The notes below the pieces were generated by a model. The model saw only the letters and a program-made list of their open reading frames with translations, was not told the origin of the DNA and searched no databases. A stretch of DNA of 38,108 nt from Candidatus Obscuribacterales bacterium (lineage in GTDB: Bacteria; Cyanobacteriota; Vampirovibrionia; Obscuribacterales; Obscuribacteraceae): assembly GCA_020050835.1 (NCBI GenBank), contig JAGVKB010000143.1, positions 1 to 38,108 on the forward strand, given 5' to 3'. The translations under genes and the position numbers were made by a program. The first letter of the stretch is position 1; each line of letters begins with the position of its first letter. Shown one piece after another: positions 25,500-38,108 of the stretch.

Positions 25500-25528
25500 A
25501 GGCGCGCCAGAAGCCGGTCCAGGCGCCT
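25500..25528 (-). terminator. Hairpin at the 3' end of the efflux operon
   Basis: AGGCGC at one arm pairs with GCGCCT at the other, overlapping the adaptor stop codon; read on the minus strand it is followed by TTG. A possible weak terminator for the RND operon. The remaining upstream gap to 25358 shows nothing else recognisable. Confidence 0.3.
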
Positions 25529-26864
25529 ACTTGTAGTCCATTGGTCTCGTCTTGACCGCCTCGCCCTCGCGCAGATCATCAGCCGGACTGACGATTACTT
25601 CATCTCCGTTTTTCAACCCGACTCTGACTTCAATTTCGTCTCCGAAATCTCGACCGACAGTAATTAGCTGAAAATGTACCTTCCCATCCTTCACCTGGGC
25701 AACATAGAGACCATCCGTACGAGTGATGATCGTCGTACCGGGAATTCTTATCCAGGGAGTTTCTCTAAGGCTCGAGAATTTCACCTCCGCATACATGCCG
25801 GGCAGCAGCGCGCGATCCGGATTATCCATTTGGATTTCAGTTTGGCGAGTGCGTGTGTTTGGATCGAGCGCTCCGCTTACATTGGTGACGCGCCCGACGA
25901 ACTTTCTTTCCGGAAACTCCGGCACATCCACCTCCGCCGTCTGCCCGGCATGCAGGTAGCGGGCGATACGCTGCGGTACCCCGACATAAATGCGCAGCTT
26001 GTCAATTTTCGCTAATTGGAACAGCTCGAGATTCGTCGATTGGCTTCCTTGAGTGATCAACGCACCCGGGTCTACCTTGCGAACAGTGATAATCCCTTCA
26101 AATGGCGCAACCACCTTTTGAAATCCCTTTTCTGCCTCGAGTCTCCGCACATCAGCCCGTTGTGCCACCACTTTCGCCTGCGCTACTGCCACTTGTGCTT
26201 GAGCCGCTTTCACCTGAGCCGATGCCGCCTTCTCCGATGCCACCGCAGCCTCCAGGGTAGCTACCTGAGCTTCCTCGAAGCGTACCTTCTCATCTCGACT
26301 CTGCAGACTGACTGCACCTCTGGTAGCAAGGTCTACCCAACGCTTGGCCGTAATGGTGGCATAAGTGAGATTGGCTTTGTCCTTCTGTACTTCGGCTTGA
26401 GCGCTGACATCTTTGGCGACAGCCTCCTTGAGCTGAGCCTGCGACTCCAGAAGCCCGGCGTCTGCCTCCTTTAAATCAGCCTTGCCCTGATTGAGCTTTT
26501 CGTCCACAGTCGGCGTGTCAATTACCGCCAACAACTCACCAGCTTTTACGTGATCGCCGATATCAACCAATCGACTTTTCAGATATCCATCCACGCGAGC
26601 ATAGATGGTCGTGTAAAGGATCGCGTTGATGTTGCCAGGCAACTTAATCGATTCAGTGCCAGCTGCCGGGCGCGCCACGATTGATGTAACCACTCTCACA
26701 GCGCCAACCGTCTCAGCCTCCATCTTCTTAAGCTCTTTCTTCTGTTCGAGCCTTGGAACAACGCCAACTGCAAACAATACTCCGACTACCACAGCCAGAA
26801 CAGTCAGAAAGAGGAAAACCCCTTTCGGTCCACCGCCAGGTTTTTCTGTGGGATAAGCCTGCAT
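25527..26864 (-). CDS. RND efflux periplasmic adaptor (membrane fusion protein)
   Basis: 445 residues, HlyD/AcrA type. One N-terminal membrane helix (about 15-37), then a lipoyl/barrel-sandwich half (YARVDGYLKSRLVDIGDHVKAGELLAVID), an Ala/Gln/Glu-rich coiled-coil hairpin (about 120-255), the second lipoyl half (VVAPFEGIITVRKVDPGALI), and beta-barrel and membrane-proximal domains to the end. It bridges the inner-membrane RND pump to an outer-membrane TolC-type channel. It is the last gene of a three-gene minus-strand operon, six bases after the second permease. One adaptor therefore appears to serve two permeases, as in MdtABC, although the permeases are not MdtB/MdtC-like at TM10. Confidence 0.93.
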   Translation of the reverse strand: MQAYPTEKPGGGPKGVFLFLTVLAVVVGVLFAVGVVPRLEQKKELKKMEAETVGAVRVVTSIVARPAAGTESIKLPGNINAILYTTIYARVDGYLKSRLVDIGDHVKAGELLAVIDTPTVDEKLNQGKADLKEADAGLLESQAQLKEAVAKDVSAQAEVQKDKANLTYATITAKRWVDLATRGAVSLQSRDEKVRFEEAQVATLEAAVASEKAASAQVKAAQAQVAVAQAKVVAQRADVRRLEAEKGFQKVVAPFEGIITVRKVDPGALITQGSQSTNLELFQLAKIDKLRIYVGVPQRIARYLHAGQTAEVDVPEFPERKFVGRVTNVSGALDPNTRTRQTEIQMDNPDRALLPGMYAEVKFSSLRETPWIRIPGTTIITRTDGLYVAQVKDGKVHFQLITVGRDFGDEIEVRVGLKNGDEVIVSPADDLREGEAVKTRPMDYK

Positions 26865-26870
26865 ATCTGT

Positions 26871-29800
26871 CTAAATTGTCCCCGAGGAATCTGCCTTATT
26901 ATCTCGCTTCTCCCGCCCTCTTAATAGGCTGAAAATGAGAGGAACGAAAAGGAGCGTAGAGAAGGTGGCAACAGTCAATCCCCCAATTACCGCTCGGCCG
27001 ATCGGCGCATTCTGCGAACCACCCTGGCCGGCGCCGATCGCCATCGGAATCATCCCGATAATCATCGCGGTAGCAGTCATGACAACCGGACGAAAGCGCT
27101 GATAGCCGGCATTGAGAGCAGCCGTCTTGGCATCATAGCCCTCCGCTCTCTGTTCGTTTGCAAAAGTCACCATCAAAATGCTGTTGGCGGAAGCGACACC
27201 AACTGTCATGATCGTTCCCATCAAAGCTGGAATGCTGAAAGTTGTCTGTGTCACAAACAAACTCCAGATGATGCCCGTAAACGCACCGGGAGTAGCCATC
27301 AAAATAATGAGCGGATCGCTCCAGGATTGGAAGTTGACCACTAGCATGAGATAAACCAGCACCAGCGCAAAAACCAGCCCACCGAGCAGACCGGCAAAGG
27401 CAGTGACCATGCTTTTAACCTGCCCACCCATCTCCAGAAAGCTGCCATGCGGAAGTTTCGGCCTGTACTCATCCAAAATCTTCTTGATGTCGCCGGAGAC
27501 ACCGCCGAGATCTCTGCCTTGACAGGCGGCATAAATATCGAAAACCGGTTGAACGTTCAAATGATTGACCACTGCCGGTGTGCCAATCCGCCTGTAAGTC
27601 GCCAGATTCGTCAACATCTGCGGCTGAAGCTGCAGCACCGGATAAGTGCCTTTGACTACTTCAGTCTTGCTATTTTGCCCGGTAATGGCCGTAATACGCA
27701 GGTTGTCCAGGCAATGAATTCGATACTGCGGAGTCTGAGCGGCCAGGTTGTAATTCACCCCGTTTTGCGTGTTGAGCCAGAAGTTGGGAGCCACCTGAAA
27801 ACTCGAGCTCAGCGAAACAAGCACCGAGTTCGAGACATCTCTTTGCGTAAGTCCCAACTGATTGGCTCTCGTTCTATCCACGTCGAGAACGAACTGCGGA
27901 GCGTCCACGACCTGATGCAGACAAACATCCACCGCGCCCGGTATCAATGAGACTTTGTGTTTGATCTGTTTGGCTAACTCGTAATTTTTCGCCTTCTCGA
28001 TCCCGGTCAATCGAATGTCGATCGGTGCCGGCAGACCAGCATTGAGTATCTGCGTAACGATGTCTGCTGGTTGAAAGTAATAGACGACTTCCGGAAAGTC
28101 GCGCTTAAGCATCGCTCTAATCTCTTTTTGATAATAGAACGTGTCGTGACTTCGCTTCTCAGTTAGCGAAACTAAAATCTCTCCGTCAGCTTCACTGAAC
28201 GTTTGACTGTCCGAGAAAGCATAATTGACACCGCTGACCGCCACTCCGATGTTGTCCGTCATGAGCTCGATTTCGCCGGCTGGAATCAATCGCTCGATTG
28301 CTCGCTCGATTTTCTTGAAGACGCGCTCCGTCTCCTCGACTCTCGTGCCTGGTCGGGCGTTTACATGCAGCCTCAGCTGTCCGGCATCGATCGCCGGGAA
28401 GAAGTCTTCTCCCACTGCCGGAAGCAGGCAAAACGACATCGCGTAGATGCCCAGGAACAAACAGACAGCGATCTTGGGATGGGAAAGCGCCCACTCGAGC
28501 GCATTGCGATAATGCTCTCTAGCTTGTTCGAAGAGGCTGTCAATCGCTTCGTGAACCCGCCCGAACAAAGAAACCGGCTTGTCTTCTCGCTTGCCTCCCT
28601 CGCCCGGTTGCTTGACTTCGCTTGCGAGAAGCGCCTTGGACATGAGCGGAACGACGGTGCGTGAAAGTCCATAAGAGGCGATCATGGCAAACGCTACAGC
28701 CAGCCCGAGCGGAACGAACAGCGAACGCGAAGGCTCCGACAGAAAGAAGACCGGCACGAACACTATACAGATCGAAAGAGTAGATACCATCGCCGGTACG
28801 GCTACTTGCTGAGCCCCATCTAGAATGGCAGTGACGATGTCCTTGCCCATATCCATGTTTCGATGAAGATTCTCGATCTCCACGGTGGCGTCATCGACGA
28901 GCATTCCGACCGCCAGAGCCAGACCGCCCAAGGTCATGGAATTGATAGTCTGCCCGCAGATATGCAAGCCGATGACCGAAGCTAGCATGGCTAGTGGGAT
29001 CGAAGTGGCAACAATCAAAGTGCTTCGCCAGCTCCCCAACAGCATCAACATCATCAGAGCCGTAAGACCGGCTGCAGTAGCTGCTTCCTGCACGACATCG
29101 GCGACGCACTCTTTGACGAATGTGGATTGATCCGTAAGCAAGGTTATCTTGCAGGATGGCGGCACAATCGACTGAATTCTGGGCAACGCGTCCTTGATCC
29201 GGTTAACAACTGCAAGCGTAGAGGCGCTGCCATTTTTCAAGATATTGAATATAACCGCCCGCTGCCCGTTTTGATTGACGATGTTGAGCTGCGGCTGATA
29301 GCCGTCATGAACATTGGCCACGTCTCTGACAAAGACAGTCGCGCCATCTTGTGTTTTAATCGGAATATCGTTCAAGCGATCGATCACTTTGGGCATGTTA
29401 TTCAAAGTGATGATGTACTCATATGGTCCCATCTTGGCCGTACCGCTGGGGGCCGTGATGTTCTGGGTGTTGACAGCCTGAACCACATCATAGGCGGACA
29501 AACCGGTGGACACGAGCGCTTCCGGGTTCAAATCGACCATCACTTCGCGATACTTGCCGCCGTACGGGAAGGGAATCGTGGCGCCTTGAATAGTGGCGAG
29601 CTGAACCCGTACAAAGTTGTTGGCAATGTCGAATAGCTGAGATTCGCTCAATATCTTATTGTCAGGTCCGGGCGGACCGCGGTCGCCGACTTTGTTGCCG
29701 ATGCCCAATTGCAAGACCGGAACATCGGTGGCACTGGATACAGTGACAAAGGGCGGAGTGATACCGGGCGGAAGATAGTTTAAACAAGCGTTGCCGACGG

Positions 29801-30131
29801 AAGCCACCATCGCCACCGCTTCGCCGATATCGCTGCCCTTATGCAAATAGACCTTAATCACGCTCATACCGGACAAGGACATTGACTCCATGTGCTCAAT
29901 GCCATTGACAGTCGATGTCAACCATGTCTCAGTGACAGTGGTAATGAGATTCTCGATGTTGTACGGCGACATGCCCGTGTATGTCCAGACGCAACTGACG
30001 ATCGGCACATCGATCGCCGGGAAGATGTCGACCGCCATCTCCATAATGGACAGAACTCCGAAGAGCGCGATGCAAATGGCCATTACGATGAAAGTGTGCG
30101 GGCGTTTAAGTGCTAGCTCTACTATCCACAT
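26871..30131 (-). CDS. RND efflux permease, second of a tandem pair
   Basis: 1086 residues, full-length RND superfamily: twelve transmembrane helices and two large periplasmic loops. TM4 carries AVGMLVDDATVEIENLHR with the proton-relay pair D413-D414. In TM10 the segment reads VGVASANSILMV, with A982 where AcrB has the relay Lys. The start of the second half includes AVGEDFFPAIDAGQLRLHVN. It is closely similar to the first permease over its whole length. The ATG at 30131 has TAAGGA overlapping the upstream stop, only two bases after the first permease. Substrates are unknown. The pair may form a heterotrimer or two alternative pumps. Confidence 0.93.
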   Translation of the reverse strand: MWIVELALKRPHTFIVMAICIALFGVLSIMEMAVDIFPAIDVPIVSCVWTYTGMSPYNIENLITTVTETWLTSTVNGIEHMESMSLSGMSVIKVYLHKGSDIGEAVAMVASVGNACLNYLPPGITPPFVTVSSATDVPVLQLGIGNKVGDRGPPGPDNKILSESQLFDIANNFVRVQLATIQGATIPFPYGGKYREVMVDLNPEALVSTGLSAYDVVQAVNTQNITAPSGTAKMGPYEYIITLNNMPKVIDRLNDIPIKTQDGATVFVRDVANVHDGYQPQLNIVNQNGQRAVIFNILKNGSASTLAVVNRIKDALPRIQSIVPPSCKITLLTDQSTFVKECVADVVQEAATAAGLTALMMLMLLGSWRSTLIVATSIPLAMLASVIGLHICGQTINSMTLGGLALAVGMLVDDATVEIENLHRNMDMGKDIVTAILDGAQQVAVPAMVSTLSICIVFVPVFFLSEPSRSLFVPLGLAVAFAMIASYGLSRTVVPLMSKALLASEVKQPGEGGKREDKPVSLFGRVHEAIDSLFEQAREHYRNALEWALSHPKIAVCLFLGIYAMSFCLLPAVGEDFFPAIDAGQLRLHVNARPGTRVEETERVFKKIERAIERLIPAGEIELMTDNIGVAVSGVNYAFSDSQTFSEADGEILVSLTEKRSHDTFYYQKEIRAMLKRDFPEVVYYFQPADIVTQILNAGLPAPIDIRLTGIEKAKNYELAKQIKHKVSLIPGAVDVCLHQVVDAPQFVLDVDRTRANQLGLTQRDVSNSVLVSLSSSFQVAPNFWLNTQNGVNYNLAAQTPQYRIHCLDNLRITAITGQNSKTEVVKGTYPVLQLQPQMLTNLATYRRIGTPAVVNHLNVQPVFDIYAACQGRDLGGVSGDIKKILDEYRPKLPHGSFLEMGGQVKSMVTAFAGLLGGLVFALVLVYLMLVVNFQSWSDPLIILMATPGAFTGIIWSLFVTQTTFSIPALMGTIMTVGVASANSILMVTFANEQRAEGYDAKTAALNAGYQRFRPVVMTATAMIIGMIPMAIGAGQGGSQNAPIGRAVIGGLTVATFSTLLFVPLIFSLLRGREKRDNKADSSGTI

Positions 30132-30133
30132 AA

Positions 30134-33100
30134 TTAATCCTTACTTGCCCCCGCCCACTTTGCCTTTACGATACTGAACATAAGCGGGACAAACAGCAGG
30201 GTGGAAAACGTTGCCACCGTCAGCCCCCCGATTACCGCCCGCCCGATCGGCGCATTTTGAGAGCCACCCTGCCCGCCTCCGACAGCCATCGGAATCATAC
30301 CGATGATCATCGCCGTTGCGGTCATCATTACCGGTCGAAATCTTTGATAACCTGCACTCAACGCCGCTTCCTTGGCGGTCTGCCCGGATGACAACTGCTC
30401 GTTGGCAAAAGTTACCATCAAAATACTGTTGGCGGAAGCCACTCCCACCGTCATGATCGCTCCCATCAAGGCCGGAATACTGAAATTAGTCTGCGTGACG
30501 AACAAGCTCCACAGGATGCCCGAAAAGGCACCGGGAATTGCCATCAAGATAATGAGCGGGTCCAGCCATGACTGAAAGTTGACTACCAGCAGCAGATAAA
30601 CCAGCACTACCGCGAACAAAAGCCCGAGCATGAGCGAAGCGTAAGCAAAGAACATGCTTTTCACCTGCCCACCCATGAACATGAACGTTCCCCGCGGCGC
30701 AATCTTCTTGTGCTCGTCCAGTATTTTCTTGATCTCACTGGAAACTCCGCCTAAGTCTCTGTCCTGGCAAGCCGCATAAATGTCGAACGCCGGCTGCACG
30801 TTTAGATGATTTACGACCGCCGGATAACGGCTCCGGCTGGGCACCGCGAGATTGGTCAGCAATTCGGGCTGCGGCTTATCGGTTTTGACGTATTGCGAAG
30901 TGACCGGTAGATTTCTCAGGTCGTCGAGCGACTTCAGCCGATACTGCGGTGCCTGCGCAGACAGGTAATAGTTGATGCCATTGGTTCGATTGAGCCAGAA
31001 ATTCGGTTGCGTTTGAAAACTCGAACTCAGCGGTATCAAAAGAGAGTTTGATATATCTTGCTGCGTCAGCCCAACCTGCTTTGCTCTTACGCGATCCACC
31101 TCGAAACCGAAATGCGGCGCATCGGTGACTTGATGCAAACAGACATCGACCGCGCCAGGAATCAGCTCGATTTGATGCTTGACTTGCTGGGCGATCTTAT
31201 AGTTTTCCGCCCGTTTCATTCCGAGGATTTTTACATCGATTGGAGCCGGAAGCCCGGCATTGATGATCTGAGTCACAATGTCGGCGGGCTGAAAGTAGAA
31301 GGTGCATTCAGGATATTGACTCTTCATCATCTGCCTGACAGTCTTCTGGTAATAGCCAGTCGAATGGCTTCGCTTTTCACTTAAGGTAATTAAAATCTCG
31401 CCGTCGGCCGCACTGATCGTCTGACTGTCGGAATAGGCATAGTTAATGCCGCTTACCGGCATTCCAATGTTATCTGATATAGCGGCCAGCTCACCCTTGG
31501 GAATAATCGAACCGAGAGTCTTCTCGATTCGCTTGAACAGGCGCTCCGTCTCCTCAATCCTGGTGCCGCCATGCGCACAAACATGCAGCCGCAAAAGTCC
31601 AGCGTCAATTGACGGAAAGAAATCTTTGCCGATCATCGGCAGCAGGCAAAATGATACGGCATAGAACCCGACGAAAAGTGCCACCACCAAGCGCCAACGC
31701 TCGAGGGCCCAGGCCAATGAATCACGATAATGGCAGCGAGCGTTCTCGAATTGCCTTTCGATCAAGTCATGAATTTTACCGAAAAATGATGTCGCACTGG
31801 CAGCGGCATGCCCACCGGTAGACAGAAGAGCCTTCGCCATCAACGGCACGACCGTCCGCGAGAGACCATAAGATGAAAGCATCGCAAAAACGACCGACAT
31901 TCCAAGCGGAACGAAAAGAGAATGCGACGGCTCCGGAAGCAACAGCAGTGGAATGAACACTATGCAAATTGACATAGTTGAAACGAGGGCCGGCATTGCA
32001 ACCTGCTCAGACCCTTCGAGAATCGCTTCGCCGATCCGCTTGCCCAGATCGAGGTGGCGATGGATGTTCTCAATCGCTACCGTCGCGTCATCGACCAGCA
32101 TTCCTACTGCCAGCGCCATCCCTCCCAGCGTCATGGAGTTGATGGTCTGACCGCTGACATTGAGCGCGATGATGGCAGACAGTACAGCCAGCGGGATTGA
32201 GGTTGCCACTATCAACGTACTACGCCAACTGCCCAGCAAAGCCAGCATCATAATCGCCGTCAAGCCGGCGGCGGTTACTGCTTCCTGCACAACGTCGGAT
32301 ACGCAATCGCGCACAAAAATGGACTGATCGGTGAGAATTCGAATGTTGCAGTTAGCCGGAACGATCTGCTTGATACGAGGCAGCAGATTCTTTACACCTT
32401 GAGTGACAGAAAGAGTCGAAGCGCTGCCCGCCTTTAAAACATTGAAGAGGACGGCGCGATGCCCATCGAGATTGACAATATTCAATTGTGGTTGGTAGCC
32501 ATCGTGCGCTTGACCGACATCACCAAGAAAGACCACCGCGTTCTTCTGCGTCTTGATCGGAATATTGTTGAGCTCGGAAATTTTTTCCGGGATATCGTTC
32601 AAAACTGCAAAATACTCGTACGGACCCATCTTCACCGAACCGCACGGGTGAAGGATGCTCTGATTGTTGACAGCTTTGACCACATCATTGGCAGACAAAC
32701 CGGTCGATCTCATGGCGAGCGGGTCGAGATCCACCATTACCTGGCGAAATTTGCCACCATATGGAAAAGGAGTAATCGTACCCTGAACAGTGGCCAATTG
32801 ATTGCGCACGATGTTGTTGGCGATGTCGAATAGTTGCGCTTCGGTAAGAGTGTCGCTTTCCAATCCGAGTTGAATCACCGGCACATCGGTTGCGCTGGAC
32901 GCCGTGACAAATGGTGGGTTGATGCCGCGCGGCAACTGTCTCAAAATCGCGCTGCCGACCGATGTCACCATCGCGACCGCTTCGCCCATCGGTGTGCCCT
33001 TCTGGAGATAAACCTTAATAATGCTCATGTTGCTCAAGGACATCGACTCCATGTGATCGATGCCGTTGATGGTCGAAGTCAGCGCCCGCTCGGTGATGGT

Positions 33101-33292
33101 GGTGACCAGGTTTTCCATGTCATAGGCGGACATCCCGGTGTAGGTCCAGACACAACTAACTACCGGTATGTCAATGTTCGGAAAGATATCCGTGGGCATG
33201 CGGAAGATCGAGATAACACCAAATAATGCAATCGTGATTGCCAGGACGACAAACGTGTGGGGTTGGCTCAGCGCCAGCTTGACTATCCACAT
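30134..33292 (-). CDS. RND efflux permease, first of a tandem pair
   Basis: 1052 residues. Same architecture as the downstream copy, with D401-D402 in TM4 (AVGMLVDDATVAIENIHR) and A954 replacing the AcrB TM10 Lys (VGVASANSILMV). Family segments include DIFPNIDIPVVSCVWTYTG near the N-terminus and MIGKDFFPSIDAGLLRLHV in the second half. It is the first gene of the operon, divergent from the TolC-family gene. GGGG lies a short distance before the ATG at 33292. It exports compounds using the proton gradient; the class cannot be told from the sequence. The N- and C-terminal regions are the most similar to its neighbour, suggesting a tandem duplication. Confidence 0.93.
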   Translation of the reverse strand: MWIVKLALSQPHTFVVLAITIALFGVISIFRMPTDIFPNIDIPVVSCVWTYTGMSAYDMENLVTTITERALTSTINGIDHMESMSLSNMSIIKVYLQKGTPMGEAVAMVTSVGSAILRQLPRGINPPFVTASSATDVPVIQLGLESDTLTEAQLFDIANNIVRNQLATVQGTITPFPYGGKFRQVMVDLDPLAMRSTGLSANDVVKAVNNQSILHPCGSVKMGPYEYFAVLNDIPEKISELNNIPIKTQKNAVVFLGDVGQAHDGYQPQLNIVNLDGHRAVLFNVLKAGSASTLSVTQGVKNLLPRIKQIVPANCNIRILTDQSIFVRDCVSDVVQEAVTAAGLTAIMMLALLGSWRSTLIVATSIPLAVLSAIIALNVSGQTINSMTLGGMALAVGMLVDDATVAIENIHRHLDLGKRIGEAILEGSEQVAMPALVSTMSICIVFIPLLLLPEPSHSLFVPLGMSVVFAMLSSYGLSRTVVPLMAKALLSTGGHAAASATSFFGKIHDLIERQFENARCHYRDSLAWALERWRLVVALFVGFYAVSFCLLPMIGKDFFPSIDAGLLRLHVCAHGGTRIEETERLFKRIEKTLGSIIPKGELAAISDNIGMPVSGINYAYSDSQTISAADGEILITLSEKRSHSTGYYQKTVRQMMKSQYPECTFYFQPADIVTQIINAGLPAPIDVKILGMKRAENYKIAQQVKHQIELIPGAVDVCLHQVTDAPHFGFEVDRVRAKQVGLTQQDISNSLLIPLSSSFQTQPNFWLNRTNGINYYLSAQAPQYRLKSLDDLRNLPVTSQYVKTDKPQPELLTNLAVPSRSRYPAVVNHLNVQPAFDIYAACQDRDLGGVSSEIKKILDEHKKIAPRGTFMFMGGQVKSMFFAYASLMLGLLFAVVLVYLLLVVNFQSWLDPLIILMAIPGAFSGILWSLFVTQTNFSIPALMGAIMTVGVASANSILMVTFANEQLSSGQTAKEAALSAGYQRFRPVMMTATAMIIGMIPMAVGGGQGGSQNAPIGRAVIGGLTVATFSTLLFVPLMFSIVKAKWAGASKD

Positions 33293-33449
33293 ATTGACTA
33301 CCCCGCGCCGCTGACGGACATTTCAGTTTGCCCGTCCCGGATTGTCCCAGAAAGTGACTGTGACCGCCACCAGATCACGAGCCAGGAAAATGAATGAATC
33401 TACTTCCGTTTGAGCATCGTTCCACTCATTTATACTTGAAGACCTGAGT

Positions 33450-35222
33450 ATGATGGAACGGAAACTCTTGAAATCCAGCACAACAAAGCACCACGCACTG
33501 CAAATCGCCATTTGTGTTGCGACACTTTGCGCCGGCTTGCTCCCCTGCTTAGCCCAGGACCCGAGTTCCACCAGCCCGCTCCAACTCAATGCGCCACCAC
33601 AACCGGCTCCTGCTCCGGCCTTCAGTACTCAGTCACCACCGGCTTTACGCGGGCTGAATTCGACTGGCGACACCGCCGCCACCGATGCCTTGCAGAAGGT
33701 CGTTACGGAAGCCACCATTAATAGTGGCGCGATCATCGTTGACCCGGAGCAAGTGGTCGTGAAGCCTCCATTGCTGTCCGCGCTGATCAGGCTCGACAAA
33801 AAACTGTCCCCTTTTCAGTTGGATGCCGGCTCGCAAAAGGAGATTGGCCTGCGTGAGGTGCTATCATCGGCGCTTGCCAACAATCTCACGATCAAAATTT
33901 CGCGCGCCGACATGGAGTCCAGCAAATGGACCTATTACGGCGCCCTTGGACAGTTTCTGCCGACCTTGAACAATGACATCAACTATTCAGGCATCAGCGG
34001 CAATTATGTGAGCCCAGCCGGGCTCGTCATACCGATCAAGAATCCGTACTTGACCACCGCGAACAATTTCACGCAGTACCTGTTTAAGGGCGGCAGCATC
34101 TTGTATGGTGCCTTGCAGAACAAGCACCAATATAAAGCGGCGCAGTATCAGCTCAAAGGCACAACCAACGAGATGCTGCTTGAATCCGCCAAGCTGTTCT
34201 ACAACCTTGCTTACAATGACGTGCTGCTGCAGATTCGAGTGAAGGCGGTGGAAGTTTCGCAAGGAGTGGTGATTGTTCAACAAGATCTCTTCGACAACGG
34301 CGTCAACACTCAACTCGACGTTCTGCAAGCCAAGTACGAGCTTTCCAGCGATCGTCAAAAGCTAATCGCTCAACAGGTAGATCGCCGGAAAGCGGCGGTC
34401 GACCTGGCGACCCTTCTCAACGCCGACACCGACACCGACCTGGTGATCAAAGACCGGCAGATTTCCAAAGTTAGGCTGGTGGATAGCAACCTGAGCGCAG
34501 CAGATCTTTTAAAAATCGCCATCGACAATCGGCCCGAACTCAAACACTACGATCAACTCAGGCTAGCCGCCAAGGACGCGGTCAAAGTCGCCCGCGCTAC
34601 GCTTTTGCCGGTCGTCACAGCCACCGGCACGATCATCGGCACCGGCTCTTATGCCCAAACCGAAAATCAACTCGAGCAAGGCTCGCAAAATACGCCTCTG
34701 AGCAGCTCCGGCTCAGGCATCGGAGCGATCGCCTCGGCGCAAGGACTGCCTCTTTCCAATTCCGGTGGCGGTAATAAACCCTGGCGAATGAGGCCGTTGT
34801 TCGAAATAGGGGTGGATTTCAGCTACAACCTGGGCGGGATGGGAGTTCCTGAGATGGCTCAGGTGCAAACCGCCCGCTGGCAAGCCCGCAAAGCACAGTT
34901 GGAATTCAATCGAAATCTATCGCACATTTATGCCGACGTGCGCGACTCTTATCTATCCTCCATGAGCGCGGAGAATCTGATCGCCGAAACCACCGACGCC
35001 GTTAAATTTGCCGAAGAGGGCCTGCGGGTAGCGATCATACGATTGAAAGACGGGGTTGGAACATATCTCGAACTCACGCAGGCCCAGCGCAACTACACCG
35101 ACGCTCTGATTAATAAGGCCAACGCGATTATCAAATTCAACCTGTCACAGGCCCAGCTGCTTCGAGCGCTGGGCCGGATAACGGTCGACACCATGACCGC
35201 CAATGTCCCGCTCCGACAGTAA
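33450..35222 (+). CDS. TolC-family outer-membrane efflux channel
   Basis: 590 residues. Signal peptide (about 1-37, cleavage near CLAQ), then a Pro/Ala/Ser-rich linker (about 38-75). The two repeated OEP domains follow (IGLREVLSSALANNLTIKIS onward), with coiled-coil helices such as DLFDNGVNTQLDVLQAKYELS and LKDGVGTYLELTQAQRNY in the two halves. It forms the trimeric exit duct of a tripartite pump and is divergent from the RND operon at 158 bases, so it is the natural partner of those permeases. ATGATG at 33450 gives two nearly equivalent starts. A Ser/Gly/Gln-rich loop (about 405-445) is unusual and probably extracellular. Confidence 0.92.
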   Translation: MMERKLLKSSTTKHHALQIAICVATLCAGLLPCLAQDPSSTSPLQLNAPPQPAPAPAFSTQSPPALRGLNSTGDTAATDALQKVVTEATINSGAIIVDPEQVVVKPPLLSALIRLDKKLSPFQLDAGSQKEIGLREVLSSALANNLTIKISRADMESSKWTYYGALGQFLPTLNNDINYSGISGNYVSPAGLVIPIKNPYLTTANNFTQYLFKGGSILYGALQNKHQYKAAQYQLKGTTNEMLLESAKLFYNLAYNDVLLQIRVKAVEVSQGVVIVQQDLFDNGVNTQLDVLQAKYELSSDRQKLIAQQVDRRKAAVDLATLLNADTDTDLVIKDRQISKVRLVDSNLSAADLLKIAIDNRPELKHYDQLRLAAKDAVKVARATLLPVVTATGTIIGTGSYAQTENQLEQGSQNTPLSSSGSGIGAIASAQGLPLSNSGGGNKPWRMRPLFEIGVDFSYNLGGMGVPEMAQVQTARWQARKAQLEFNRNLSHIYADVRDSYLSSMSAENLIAETTDAVKFAEEGLRVAIIRLKDGVGTYLELTQAQRNYTDALINKANAIIKFNLSQAQLLRALGRITVDTMTANVPLRQ

Positions 35223-35353: not shown

Positions 35354-36526
35354 TTACTTTCGCCAAAGAAATCGGCGCAACATTTCGGCGATCGGCCGCT
35401 GCCCGCTCAGCTTTTGCTTGAGGACGGCTTCCCGAATTTTAACTTGCTCAGATAAAAGGTCGACCCAGGTGTCCTCGATGCCATGTCTCTTAGCTGATTG
35501 CACGACTTTCTTGTATCCTTCGAGATTGGCATCAAGCACTTCGCCGAGTGTGGCAATGACATCATCGGTGAGATGCGGAAAACTCGGCGGAACGGCAATT
35601 CTCATGTTGCGCAGTAAGAAAATCAGAAAAGTGCACTTGAGACACCGTCCACAGTTCTCGTCTCCCGATTGTGCGCTATAGCAAACTCTCAGCTTGTCAA
35701 ACCCTTCAGCCCAGCCGGCAATCGCCTCTACCTTCTGCCAACGTTTGAAGGCTGCGCCATCATGGACGATGCGGAAACTTGAGCCCGACAGAAGATGGTC
35801 GGTAACTGGATTTGAGCCCCACGGAATGGTGAGCTGGTCGTAGGTATGACTGCTACCGATTAGCCCCTCGCCGTATCTTTCCTTGAGCAAATGCAAGCAA
35901 GATGCAATGCCGGCGATGTGGGTGTCATTCCACTCGATGTTAAGCGCCTTGAGATTAGTGGACATCGTGATCAGTCTTACACCCACGCTATCTAAGGTCT
36001 TGCGAATGCGTTCGGCAGCACGATTAAACGCATCGCTCTGCTCCAGGGAGATATCGAAGCCATGCACAAATAGCCCAGAAACAATGTTTCTTCTGGCAAT
36101 TCGCTCGCAATCTCCCCGTCTGTGCCGAAACATGGTAAAGCAACTGTCTACACCGCCTGTAAACGCAGCTACAGACATATCACTCGGCTGCGCTTGAATC
36201 GCCTCCACCTCCGAATCAGCACTTAGGCCAATCTGCTTGTACTTGCCAGGACGCCAACTTTGCCATGCTGCCTGAAATTCGTGCAGATTCTTCAAGAGCG
36301 ACGGAGAGACCGGCGCGTGAACCGAGGTATCGACGCCATCCGACATGAGCAGAAAGATATTGCCGATTACAAAGGCATCAGCGGACTGGCATTGCGGCGC
36401 GACTTCCGATGGCATCTGATACCAAAGCTTCAATCGACCGCGGGAAGGGCTTTCCACCACAGCGCTCAATCTGGTAGTAACGCCGTCGCTTTGCGGTTCT
36501 TCAATCCAAATATGTGACTTCTGCAT
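35354..36526 (-). CDS. PP-loop ATPase of unknown function with a CxxCxxC motif
   Basis: 390 residues from the ATG at 36526; a TTG further upstream (36568) is less likely. The N-terminal part (about 1-115) is beta-rich and unassigned. Then comes AAFTGGVDSCFTMF (T123-S128), the ATP pyrophosphatase loop of the QueC/asparagine synthetase/ExsB superfamily. Next are HGFDISLEQSDAF, GSSHTYDQLTIPWGSNP and VHDGAAFKRWQKVEAIA, and finally NCGRCLKC (C292, C295, C298), a probable metal or thiol site. Such enzymes adenylate a carboxylate or carbonyl and add N or S. It is divergent (183 bases) from the FxsB-like radical SAM gene, which hints at a shared maturation pathway. Exact chemistry unknown; QueC itself is much shorter. 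Confidence 0.7.
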   Translation of the reverse strand: MQKSHIWIEEPQSDGVTTRLSAVVESPSRGRLKLWYQMPSEVAPQCQSADAFVIGNIFLLMSDGVDTSVHAPVSPSLLKNLHEFQAAWQSWRPGKYKQIGLSADSEVEAIQAQPSDMSVAAFTGGVDSCFTMFRHRRGDCERIARRNIVSGLFVHGFDISLEQSDAFNRAAERIRKTLDSVGVRLITMSTNLKALNIEWNDTHIAGIASCLHLLKERYGEGLIGSSHTYDQLTIPWGSNPVTDHLLSGSSFRIVHDGAAFKRWQKVEAIAGWAEGFDKLRVCYSAQSGDENCGRCLKCTFLIFLLRNMRIAVPPSFPHLTDDVIATLGEVLDANLEGYKKVVQSAKRHGIEDTWVDLLSEQVKIREAVLKQKLSGQRPIAEMLRRFLWRK

Positions 36527-36665
36527 GCGGATTAATCGTCCCCAGCGACTTTGTGAGCACCGGGGCAAACTCGTCGCTACTGTCGATGAACCTTAGTTTA
36601 TGATGCGATACTGTGTAATCTGGCTGAGATTAATCAATTGGCAAGATCCAGCTAATCTTCGAACT

Positions 36666-36671
36666 TATAAT
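36666..36671 (+). promoter_or_regulatory. Candidate -10 element for the radical SAM gene
   Basis: A consensus TATAAT 38 bases before the TTG start. TTGGCA at 36638-36643 is the nearest -35-like hexamer, but the 22-base spacer is too long, so only the -10 is credible. Confidence 0.35.
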
Positions 36672-36709
36672 GCTAATTCGGTTTCCAATGGCTGTCTGGA
36701 GAATCTCGC

Positions 36710-37924
36710 TTGGAATTTCGACCAATCTCATCGTATGTCTTGAAAGTTGCCAGCCGCTGCAATCTTAATTGCAGCTATTGCTACATGTACAACTTGGCAG
36801 ATAAGAGCTACCAGCAGCAACCTGCAATCATGTCCGAAGAAATTGTACACGCCACCTTGACAAGGGTTCGAGAGCACGCCATCAAAAAGAATCTGAAAAC
36901 AGTTCGCCTGATCTTTCACGGCGGCGAACCGCTTTTGGCCAGCCCTGACTTTTACAGAAAGTTTGTCCGAGCAGCTCGGCAGATACTCGCTCCCGAGGCG
37001 TCAGCCCTCTTTTCTATGCAGACCAACGCCACCTTGATCTCTCCTGAATGGCTGGAGCTGTTCTTGGAATTGAACATCGCGTTCGGCATCAGCTTGGATG
37101 GACCGGCTGAGATCAATGATTTGAATCGAGTAGATCATCAAGGTAACGGCTCCTACCTAAGAGTCGTCGAAGCGATCCGAATGGTCAGGTCCGATCAGAG
37201 ATTCGACTCGCTGGGCAGAAAGGCTCTCACTGTCATCAATCTGCAATCGGATCCGCTGCTCGTTTATGAGCATTTCCGCAGCCTGGGTTTCCGTGAGATT
37301 GACTTTCTCTTCCCAGACGGCACGTATGATGCACCGCCGCCCGCGGTGACAGTCGGCGGCACAGACGCGCCCTATGCTGACTGGCTAATACCTATCTTCG
37401 ACCAGTGGTTCGAGAAGTCCGACTCAACCTTTTCGATTCGCACCTTCAAAAACATAATCCGCCTGATATTAGGCTCAGAACGCTCGACCGAAAATATCGG
37501 CGGACGCAAAGGCCGGGTCGTCGTAATCGAAACGGACGGCGGAATCGAGCCGGTGAGCGCACTTAAGGCATGCGGCGAAGGCTTTACCAAAGCCGGGCTG
37601 AACGTGCTAAACAGTGCAATCGATGACGTGTATGACGCTCCCCTCTTCAAGGAGTATCTGGCCGGTCCCGAATGCCTCAGTCAGGAATGCGCCAGCTGCC
37701 CGATTGTCACGGTGTGTGGTGGTGGCTACCTGCCGCATCGTTACAAGTCAGAGAATGGGTTTGATAACCCTTCAATATTTTGCAGAGATCTTACGAAGCT
37801 TATACGCCATATCCAGGCGAAAGTAATGGAGGCTCTTCCAATCGGCTTCCGTTCACAATTGGGGTCAAGCAAGCAAACCGGACCAACCAGGGAGATGCAA
37901 CCCGCTCTCTCGGGTAAACTCTGA
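36710..37924 (+). CDS. FxsB-like radical SAM/SPASM peptide maturase
   Basis: 404 residues from a TTG start at 36710, with GGAGA seven bases upstream. The radical SAM cluster motif is CNLNCSYC (C17, C21, C24), followed by IFHGGEPLL (the GGE motif) and GISLDGPAEIND. The C-terminal SPASM-type domain supplies C288, C322, C327, C330, C336 and C358. The closing HRYKSENGFDNPSIFC resembles, from memory, the FxsB group of cyclophane-forming maturases. These enzymes crosslink side chains of ribosomally made peptides. A small ORF with a strong SD begins 71 bases downstream and may be the substrate. An anaerobic sulfatase-maturase role is less likely because no sulfatase is present. Confidence 0.82.
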   Translation: MEFRPISSYVLKVASRCNLNCSYCYMYNLADKSYQQQPAIMSEEIVHATLTRVREHAIKKNLKTVRLIFHGGEPLLASPDFYRKFVRAARQILAPEASALFSMQTNATLISPEWLELFLELNIAFGISLDGPAEINDLNRVDHQGNGSYLRVVEAIRMVRSDQRFDSLGRKALTVINLQSDPLLVYEHFRSLGFREIDFLFPDGTYDAPPPAVTVGGTDAPYADWLIPIFDQWFEKSDSTFSIRTFKNIIRLILGSERSTENIGGRKGRVVVIETDGGIEPVSALKACGEGFTKAGLNVLNSAIDDVYDAPLFKEYLAGPECLSQECASCPIVTVCGGGYLPHRYKSENGFDNPSIFCRDLTKLIRHIQAKVMEALPIGFRSQLGSSKQTGPTREMQPALSGKL

Positions 37925-37995
37925 GACCTTCTTAATTCTCGAGATATTGCTTCACCGGATAAAATGCTAATTTCATATAGCTAGGAGACTTATAA

Positions 37996-38108
37996 ATGTT
38001 TGAAGTAGGTTCTACTCAGTTTTCAATGTCTGCAAGCGAATTATCTACCAGTCTACTTGAGCAGATAGAAAATCCCATTCTCGGCAAGATAATGAAAGAG
38101 ATTATTGC
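37996..38108 (+). CDS. Candidate precursor peptide (5' part), cut by the window edge
   Basis: ATG at 37996 with AGGAG eight bases upstream. The frame is open for 37 codons to the edge. It starts MFEVGSTQFSMSASELSTSL and continues with a helical, leader-like segment ending IMKEII. Its position directly after the radical SAM/SPASM gene fits a RiPP precursor. The total length and any core motif are outside the window, so it could equally be the start of a longer protein. Confidence 0.45.
   Translation, partial: MFEVGSTQFSMSASELSTSLLEQIENPILGKIMKEII

Follow-up and report, generated by a model that had tools for sequence, protein, structure and literature searches.

Which peptide is encoded at the right end of contig JAGVKB010000143.1 of Candidatus Obscuribacterales bacterium, and what does a PP-loop ATPase contribute to its maturation? 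The window, i.e., the whole stretch of DNA analysed, is one whole contig of 38108 bases (G000:C63), and its right end carries three open reading frames (ORFs). The minus strand encodes a PP-loop ATPase there; on the plus strand are a radical S-adenosylmethionine (SAM)/SPASM maturase and a small ORF. The window end is very likely a locus for a ribosomally synthesized and post-translationally modified peptide (RiPP), and probably one for a cyclophane-type (triceptide-like) product with a QatC-like PP-loop protein as a second tailoring enzyme.

The maturase gene (36710–37924, plus strand, TTG start) encodes 404 amino acids. Every element of the FxsB-type signature named in the original prediction was present: the radical SAM motif CxxxCxxC as CNLNCSYC (C17/C21/C24), GGE within HGGEP, SPASM-type C-terminal cysteines and GFDNPSIFC. 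In five maturase homologues eight cysteines were invariant (positions 17, 21, 24, 288, 327, 330, 336 and 358). Besides a Pfam match (PF04055), the best NCBIfam match was FxsB, TIGR04269, over the full length (361 bits, E 6.6e-108), with YhhB as the second model (345.7 bits); maturases of relatives scored 351–363 bits against TIGR04269. Thus, FxsB was the best match, in line with the FxsB-like enzyme proposed originally, but the score is 9 bits below the curated cut-off of 370 bits, and therefore the enzyme is named FxsB-like and not filed as FxsB.

The small ORF starts with ATG at 37996, 71 bases after the TGA of the maturase gene, and stays open for 37 codons up to the contig end. A Shine-Dalgarno sequence, AGGAGA (37983–37988, plus strand), is located 7 bases 5' of the ATG. 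This is a truncated precursor peptide gene (37996–38108, plus strand), with the leader MFEVGSTQFSMSASELSTSLLEQIENPILGKIMKEII... present and the core missing. It had been pointed out originally that this short ORF with its strong Shine-Dalgarno sequence reads like a leader peptide, and a leader profile bore this out: built from six precursors of relatives, with the window ORF left out, and searched against window ORFs of at least 25 amino acids, it ranked the truncated ORF first (E 1.2e-5; next 1.6). Alignment showed a leader shared with the precursors of the relatives, including that of locus L035. No other contig of the same genome continues the truncated end. A degenerate DNA pattern for FGEGG occurred at 3 places in the genome, versus 5 for a reversed control; one of the 3 is in frame in an ORF of 154 amino acids, and none of them resembles a precursor next to a maturase.

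For maturase homologues, 146 genomes around the window's own were searched; apart from the own genome, close homologues (54–57% identity) turned up in just four, all of the same family. With the maturases of loci L034–L037 the window enzyme shares 53–55% identity. The divergent pair, PP-loop gene on the minus and maturase gene on the plus strand, recurs in genomes G045, G047 (two loci) and G048 (loci L034, L035, L036 and L037); in G049 each of the two genes runs off the end of a contig (L038, L048), which fits a pair that was separated during assembly. According to flanking gene names, which were read from sequence, the pair sits in three contexts: RND/TolC genes in the window, rsmI/uppP-like genes in L034, L036 and L037, and gcvT/gcvH-like genes in L035 and L048. 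Since the pairing is kept in three different contexts, the two genes appear to be functionally linked, and the PP-loop enzyme is likely part of the RiPP pathway. The conservation of the neighbourhood, which the original prediction had set as a check, was thus confirmed, and one small-peptide family was found alongside the maturase.

The precursor ORFs of this family lie between the PP-loop and maturase genes in L034 (two), L036 (two) and L037 (one), in the orientation of the maturase, and comprise 52–60 codons; one of those in L036 (6646–6804) encodes 52 amino acids. The corresponding region of the window (divergent intergenic region, 36527–36709), which holds one or two precursor genes in three relatives, yielded no precursor gene. 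The single-core precursors end in GSSFGEGGG, GSSFGEGGN, GSSFGEGGP, GSSFGEGGGG and GSAFGEGGGAG. In L035 a precursor ORF of 163 amino acids is located downstream of the maturase; FG(E/Q) occurs in it eight times (residues 51, 66, 79, 92, 105, 118, 131 and 146), the spacing being exactly 13 residues in five successive steps; Tandem Repeats Finder detected a 39-base tandem unit. The six precursors of the relatives contain 13 cores, in each of which Phe, Gly and Glu/Gln, i.e., F-G-(E/Q), were constant; all six had a common leader, FSxD...QLxxVxHPxLKKIIxxVL. Substitutions among three precursor copies were mostly at codon position 3 (4/2/16, 7/3/25 and 4/2/15 for positions 1, 2 and 3), as expected for coding sequence under purifying selection. 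A profile of the single-core precursors matched, in 50 genomes of the family, only ORFs next to the pair.

The relatives therefore possess what defines a RiPP locus: small precursors that form one family, conserved in leader and core, and an adjoining peptide-modifying enzyme. The idea of a modified peptide, which had been made to depend on a conserved small peptide beside homologues of the maturase, agrees with this FGEGG-core family, whose leader is shared by the window ORF. Of the core motifs suggested at the time, repeats were encountered (eight in L035); FxS or aromatic-x-Asn/Arg were not, the core of the relatives being F-G-(E/Q) instead. An FxSxx-COOH ending was likewise not found beside the maturase: the precursors of the relatives have either a C-terminal FGEGG(x) or repeated FG(E/Q). 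Because the window precursor has both its position downstream of the maturase and its leader in common with L035, it is expected, as far as the sequence goes, to resemble the multi-core precursor of that locus.

Characterised enzymes for three-residue cyclophanes connect the aromatic residue at position i with the beta carbon of residue i+2; the FxsB-type enzyme MscB, for example, joins C4 of Phe to the C-beta of Ser at i+2 (PMC11002830). As is typical of triceptides, the cores of the relatives combine an aromatic residue with an invariant partner two positions further on. A cyclophane between Phe and Glu/Gln would be the most economical reading, since Phe, Gly and Glu/Gln are constant in every core, with cyclophane spacing; by analogy, a crosslink from Phe to i+2, formed by the maturase, is rather likely. 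The FxsB-like maturase would recognise a precursor with the conserved leader and one or several F-G-(E/Q) cores, generate a 5'-deoxyadenosyl radical and close a three-residue ring from the Phe ring to the beta carbon of Glu/Gln, with a loss of 2 Da per core. We infer the ring, its atoms and the order of the steps, as well as all of the PP-loop chemistry considered below. A different radical change at Phe-Gly-Glu, e.g., a Glu-centred crosslink, an epimerisation or a decarboxylation, is unlikely, although related peptide-modifying radical SAM enzymes vary in core motif and outcome (PMC11002830), and Glu/Gln would be unusual at position three; Phe is present in all cores, the distance from i to i+2 is that of cyclophanes, and the closest family models, FxsB and YhhB, are cyclophane-forming.

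Other FxsB-like maturases offered different pictures. Beside the nearest ones inspected (Spirosoma, Calothrix, G440 and G422) no FGEGG peptide was found; beside the G440 maturase the candidate core is another one, SYSSYTKHSKGAW. A less closely related FxsB-like maturase (L140, 9159–10668) is accompanied by a candidate precursor of 71 amino acids ending in SSYSSYTKHSKGAW, and no QatC-like gene was recognised next to it. In L141 (6921–9089) the FxsB-like maturase is part of an ORF of 722 amino acids, which is longer than usual and perhaps a fusion.

The second question concerns the PP-loop protein. Its ORF (35354–36568, minus strand; 404 amino acids as listed) was identified from the ORF list, homologue alignment, motif counts, and model and fold comparison, and contains an in-frame ATG at 36526, which fits the start of the homologues and is probably the true start; the interval given in the original prediction began at the same base. 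The divergently encoded PP-loop ATPase with CxxCxxC described there is indeed present: the protein carries TGGVDS and C-x9-CxxCxxC, and (S/T)GGxDS and C-x9-CxxCxxC were each found in 13/13 aligned members. An N-terminal domain, the PP-loop core, C-x9-CxxCxxC and a helical C-terminal extension make up its architecture. In the family searches the window protein matched nothing in Pfam and had, in NCBIfam, no more than a row at chance level; 8/13 members had a weak Pfam QueC match (best E 0.008), and one homologue touched the PADLOC QatC model (E 0.027). With an AlphaFold2 model (predicted local distance difference test, pLDDT, 86), the best fold by VIA-align was QatC of the qatABCD system (9y01; Z 15.3, root-mean-square deviation 4.9, 304 residues, 11% identity), residues 14–378 of the model being placed on 2–457 of the chain, so that the N- and C-terminal extensions were both spanned. 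QueC (Z 12.1), Cap9 (Z 11.8) and then other PP-loop enzymes followed. Plain Foldseek with the full model gave a weak ranking, in which most top rows were not meaningful, and the sequence profile of the PP-loop protein, run against solved structures, found no credible match and was discarded, the best row being a repeat protein reached via many weak repeats. The N-terminal domain alone (pLDDT 92) had middling matches (Z < 6) with an RNase-H-like arrangement; no RiPP recognition element was listed. According to the motif definitions in PMC13329287, the QueC motifs C(x)8CxxCxxC, YxQxHxxE, VPxRN and YPDC were each present in 0/13 members, and the count was again 0/13 for C(x)19CGxC, the cysteine pattern of QatC. 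Model and motifs taken together, the protein appears as a branch of the QueC superfamily with QatC-like architecture and a signature of its own; the earlier label, PP-loop ATPase, can thus be kept as to its motifs and refined to a QueC-superfamily enzyme whose fold is closest to QatC.

QueC enzymes adenylate a carboxylate, which is converted to an amide and then to a nitrile, and Cap9 joins a carboxylate to the N-terminus of a protein (PMC13279940). By analogy, the QatC-like PP-loop enzyme could, as a dedicated second tailoring enzyme, activate a carboxylate with ATP and then form an amide-type bond on the peptide, i.e., amidation, ligation or a nitrile; such a carboxylate-activating role is put forward tentatively. 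Another possibility would be that a nucleobase, or some other small acid, is conjugated to an exposed N-terminal amine of the peptide, in the way that Cap9 acts on its CD-NTase and that has been proposed for QatC on QatB (PMC13279940). It would accord with QatC as the closest fold, with matching N- and C-terminal extensions, and with GSS/GSA before FGEGG in the single-core precursors, which recalls the N-terminal MGTS of QatB and MGGS of CD-NTases (PMC13279940). However, the repeat cores of L035 are without that Gly, YPDC, the substrate motif of QueC and Cap9, is lacking, and QueD/PTPS was not found in the window's own genome and five relatives (own genome 95.7% complete; 2/6 genomes at least 93% complete), while control genomes were positive in 9/14 cases, nor was a full-length canonical QueC found in these six. 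De novo synthesis of 7-deazaguanine is, as judged from these searches, probably missing there. Thus, 7-carboxy-7-deazaguanine is probably not made, which disfavours conjugation of the Cap9 type, and likewise deazaguanylation as the role of the PP-loop enzyme; the whole proposal is considered very unlikely.

Insertion of sulfur, giving a thioamide or thio-acid as with LarE, YcfA or MnmA, would find some basis in the core fold, which matches YcfA, LarE, MnmA and TtuA with Z of about 8–10. QueC and Cap9 are matched with higher Z, however, the four cysteines of C-x9-CxxCxxC are arranged close to the zinc site of QueC, and no sulfur donor gene was recognised alongside the PP-loop gene; this role is considered quite improbable.

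It could also be argued that the maturase alone makes the product and that the PP-loop enzyme, linked by co-regulation only, modifies a sugar, a carrier, the target of the peptide or a self-protection factor. In a survey of PP-loop homologues, from which 80 loci were kept, most relatives were found outside RiPP loci, often in glycan loci (notably in Proteobacteria) and in some cases adjoining polysaccharide pyruvyl transferase genes. In the three contexts where the pair is kept, however, no glycan gene was seen alongside, and sister PP-loop genes adjoin YcaO genes and Cys-rich peptides; the proposal seems rather unlikely. In the tree, 12 PP-loop proteins of Obscuribacterales formed one clade (98/97), all of which adjoin RiPP-type genes: five next to an FxsB-like maturase (subclade 100/98), five with YcaO, nitroreductase and Cys-rich peptides, and two with glycosyltransferases and an AGPC peptide. 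Since different ring-forming machineries share a dedicated PP-loop enzyme, a tailoring step common to the radical SAM and YcaO classes of RiPPs is suggested. Returning to the PP-loop enzyme as a member of the pathway, it is conceivable, if somewhat less than probable, that in these non-photosynthetic cyanobacteria a QatC-like branch was recruited as an ATP-dependent tailoring enzyme in at least two RiPP classes (radical SAM cyclophane and YcaO azole), with an undescribed modification and a new Phe-Gly-Glu crosslink motif. A common docking site for the PP-loop enzyme, F-x-x-(D/S) near the N-terminus of FGEGG and Cys-rich precursors, was considered and dropped, as a profile-profile comparison (P 0.15) and shuffles were unsupportive.

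Among the loci of this clade, L040 (4644–17986), L039 and L041 contain two facing RiPP sets around glycosyltransferases, every set comprising YcaO, nitroreductase and a QatC-like PP-loop gene of its own, and L042 contains one such set; the precursors of L039–L042 have SGPCACDNC or very Cys-rich AGPCSCACTCPCAC cores. In L043 (8081–11467) and L047 (3176–6490), where no YcaO gene was seen, the PP-loop gene adjoins glycosyltransferases, and L043 has a candidate precursor with repeated AGPC segments; the product is possibly a glycosylated peptide. Farther away, PP-loop genes of this family adjoin polysaccharide pyruvyl transferase or glycosyltransferase genes in L145 (5877–8200), L146 (5872–8257), L055–L058 and L064, which suggests a glycan role of the family there; in L145 and L146 the polysaccharide pyruvyl transferase is annotated as such and the PP-loop protein as hypothetical protein.

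Several points weigh against a cyclophane RiPP with a second, PP-loop-dependent modification. The core of the window precursor itself is not visible, as it lies beyond the contig end. The crosslink is a prediction, and of the residue pairs in the review PMC11002830 none has Glu/Gln at position three. The PP-loop family is far wider than RiPP loci, and because the catalytic motifs of QueC, QatC and Cap9 are absent or nearly so, its reaction is not readable from the sequence. Finally, the pair has no conserved peptidase or exporter gene next to it, and a search for a peptidase C39 domain in the own genome found none.

Maturase, precursor logic and fold are of known kinds. The locus resembles those of the FxsB/MscB triceptide maturases in the full-length family match, the SPASM-type cysteines and the aromatic core residue with its i+2 partner; it differs by the PP-loop partner, by F-G-(E/Q) in place of FxSxx-COOH and by single and eight-fold cores in one family. 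With QatC of the qatABCD anti-phage system the PP-loop protein shares the fold including both extensions, whereas its cysteine pattern is different (C-x9-CxxCxxC versus C(x)19CGxC), identity is 11%, and its partners are a RiPP maturase and a peptide; qatA, qatB and qatD were not recognised among the neighbours, which were read by eye, a QatA/B/D profile search not having been made. QueC (preQ0 synthase) and Cap9, of a type IV cyclic oligonucleotide-based anti-phage signalling system (CBASS), have the PP-loop core, the CxxCxxC site and a fold match of Z about 12 in common with it, but also YxQxHxxE, VPxRN and YPDC, which it lacks, in a genome without detected QueD. PesC, the asparagine-synthetase-like nitrile synthetase of the nitrilobacillins, is an ATP-dependent RiPP tailoring enzyme that activates a peptide carboxylate and makes C-terminal nitriles (PMC13060819); for the PP-loop enzyme a similar activation is only surmised. 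In contrast to PesC, the PP-loop protein belongs to the QueC/QatC branch and adjoins a radical SAM maturase, and neither it nor 12 aligned homologues had an Asn_synthase match.

The original prediction knew of no described pathway that pairs an FxsB-like maturase with such a PP-loop protein, and our literature search gave none either. Neither the FG(E/Q) core nor the pairing with a QatC-like enzyme was met in the literature searched, an absence which is weak evidence, as many subscription papers were outside the search; a full-text search for RiPP studies in this lineage returned none that was recognised. The reaction of QatC could not be reconstituted in PMC13279940 and is still to be settled in research on anti-phage immunity. 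For learning the function of this branch of the QueC superfamily, an enzyme of the QatC-like type that stands alone, with a likely peptide partner of 52 residues, would be an easier system. Should the proposed pathway be true, cyclophane RiPPs would gain an F-G-E/Q motif and possibly a new second modification.

Next to the locus, the window contains at 25527–35222 two tandem RND permease-like ORFs (about 1050–1090 amino acids), an adaptor-like ORF and a divergent TolC-like ORF; RND/TolC-type genes were not seen next to the pair in the relatives. A further group of PP-loop proteins, distantly related (about 26–32% identity), was noticed in L046 (9758–12356), L050 (11555–14153) and L044 (9640–10932), and occurs as tandem pairs in two genomes.

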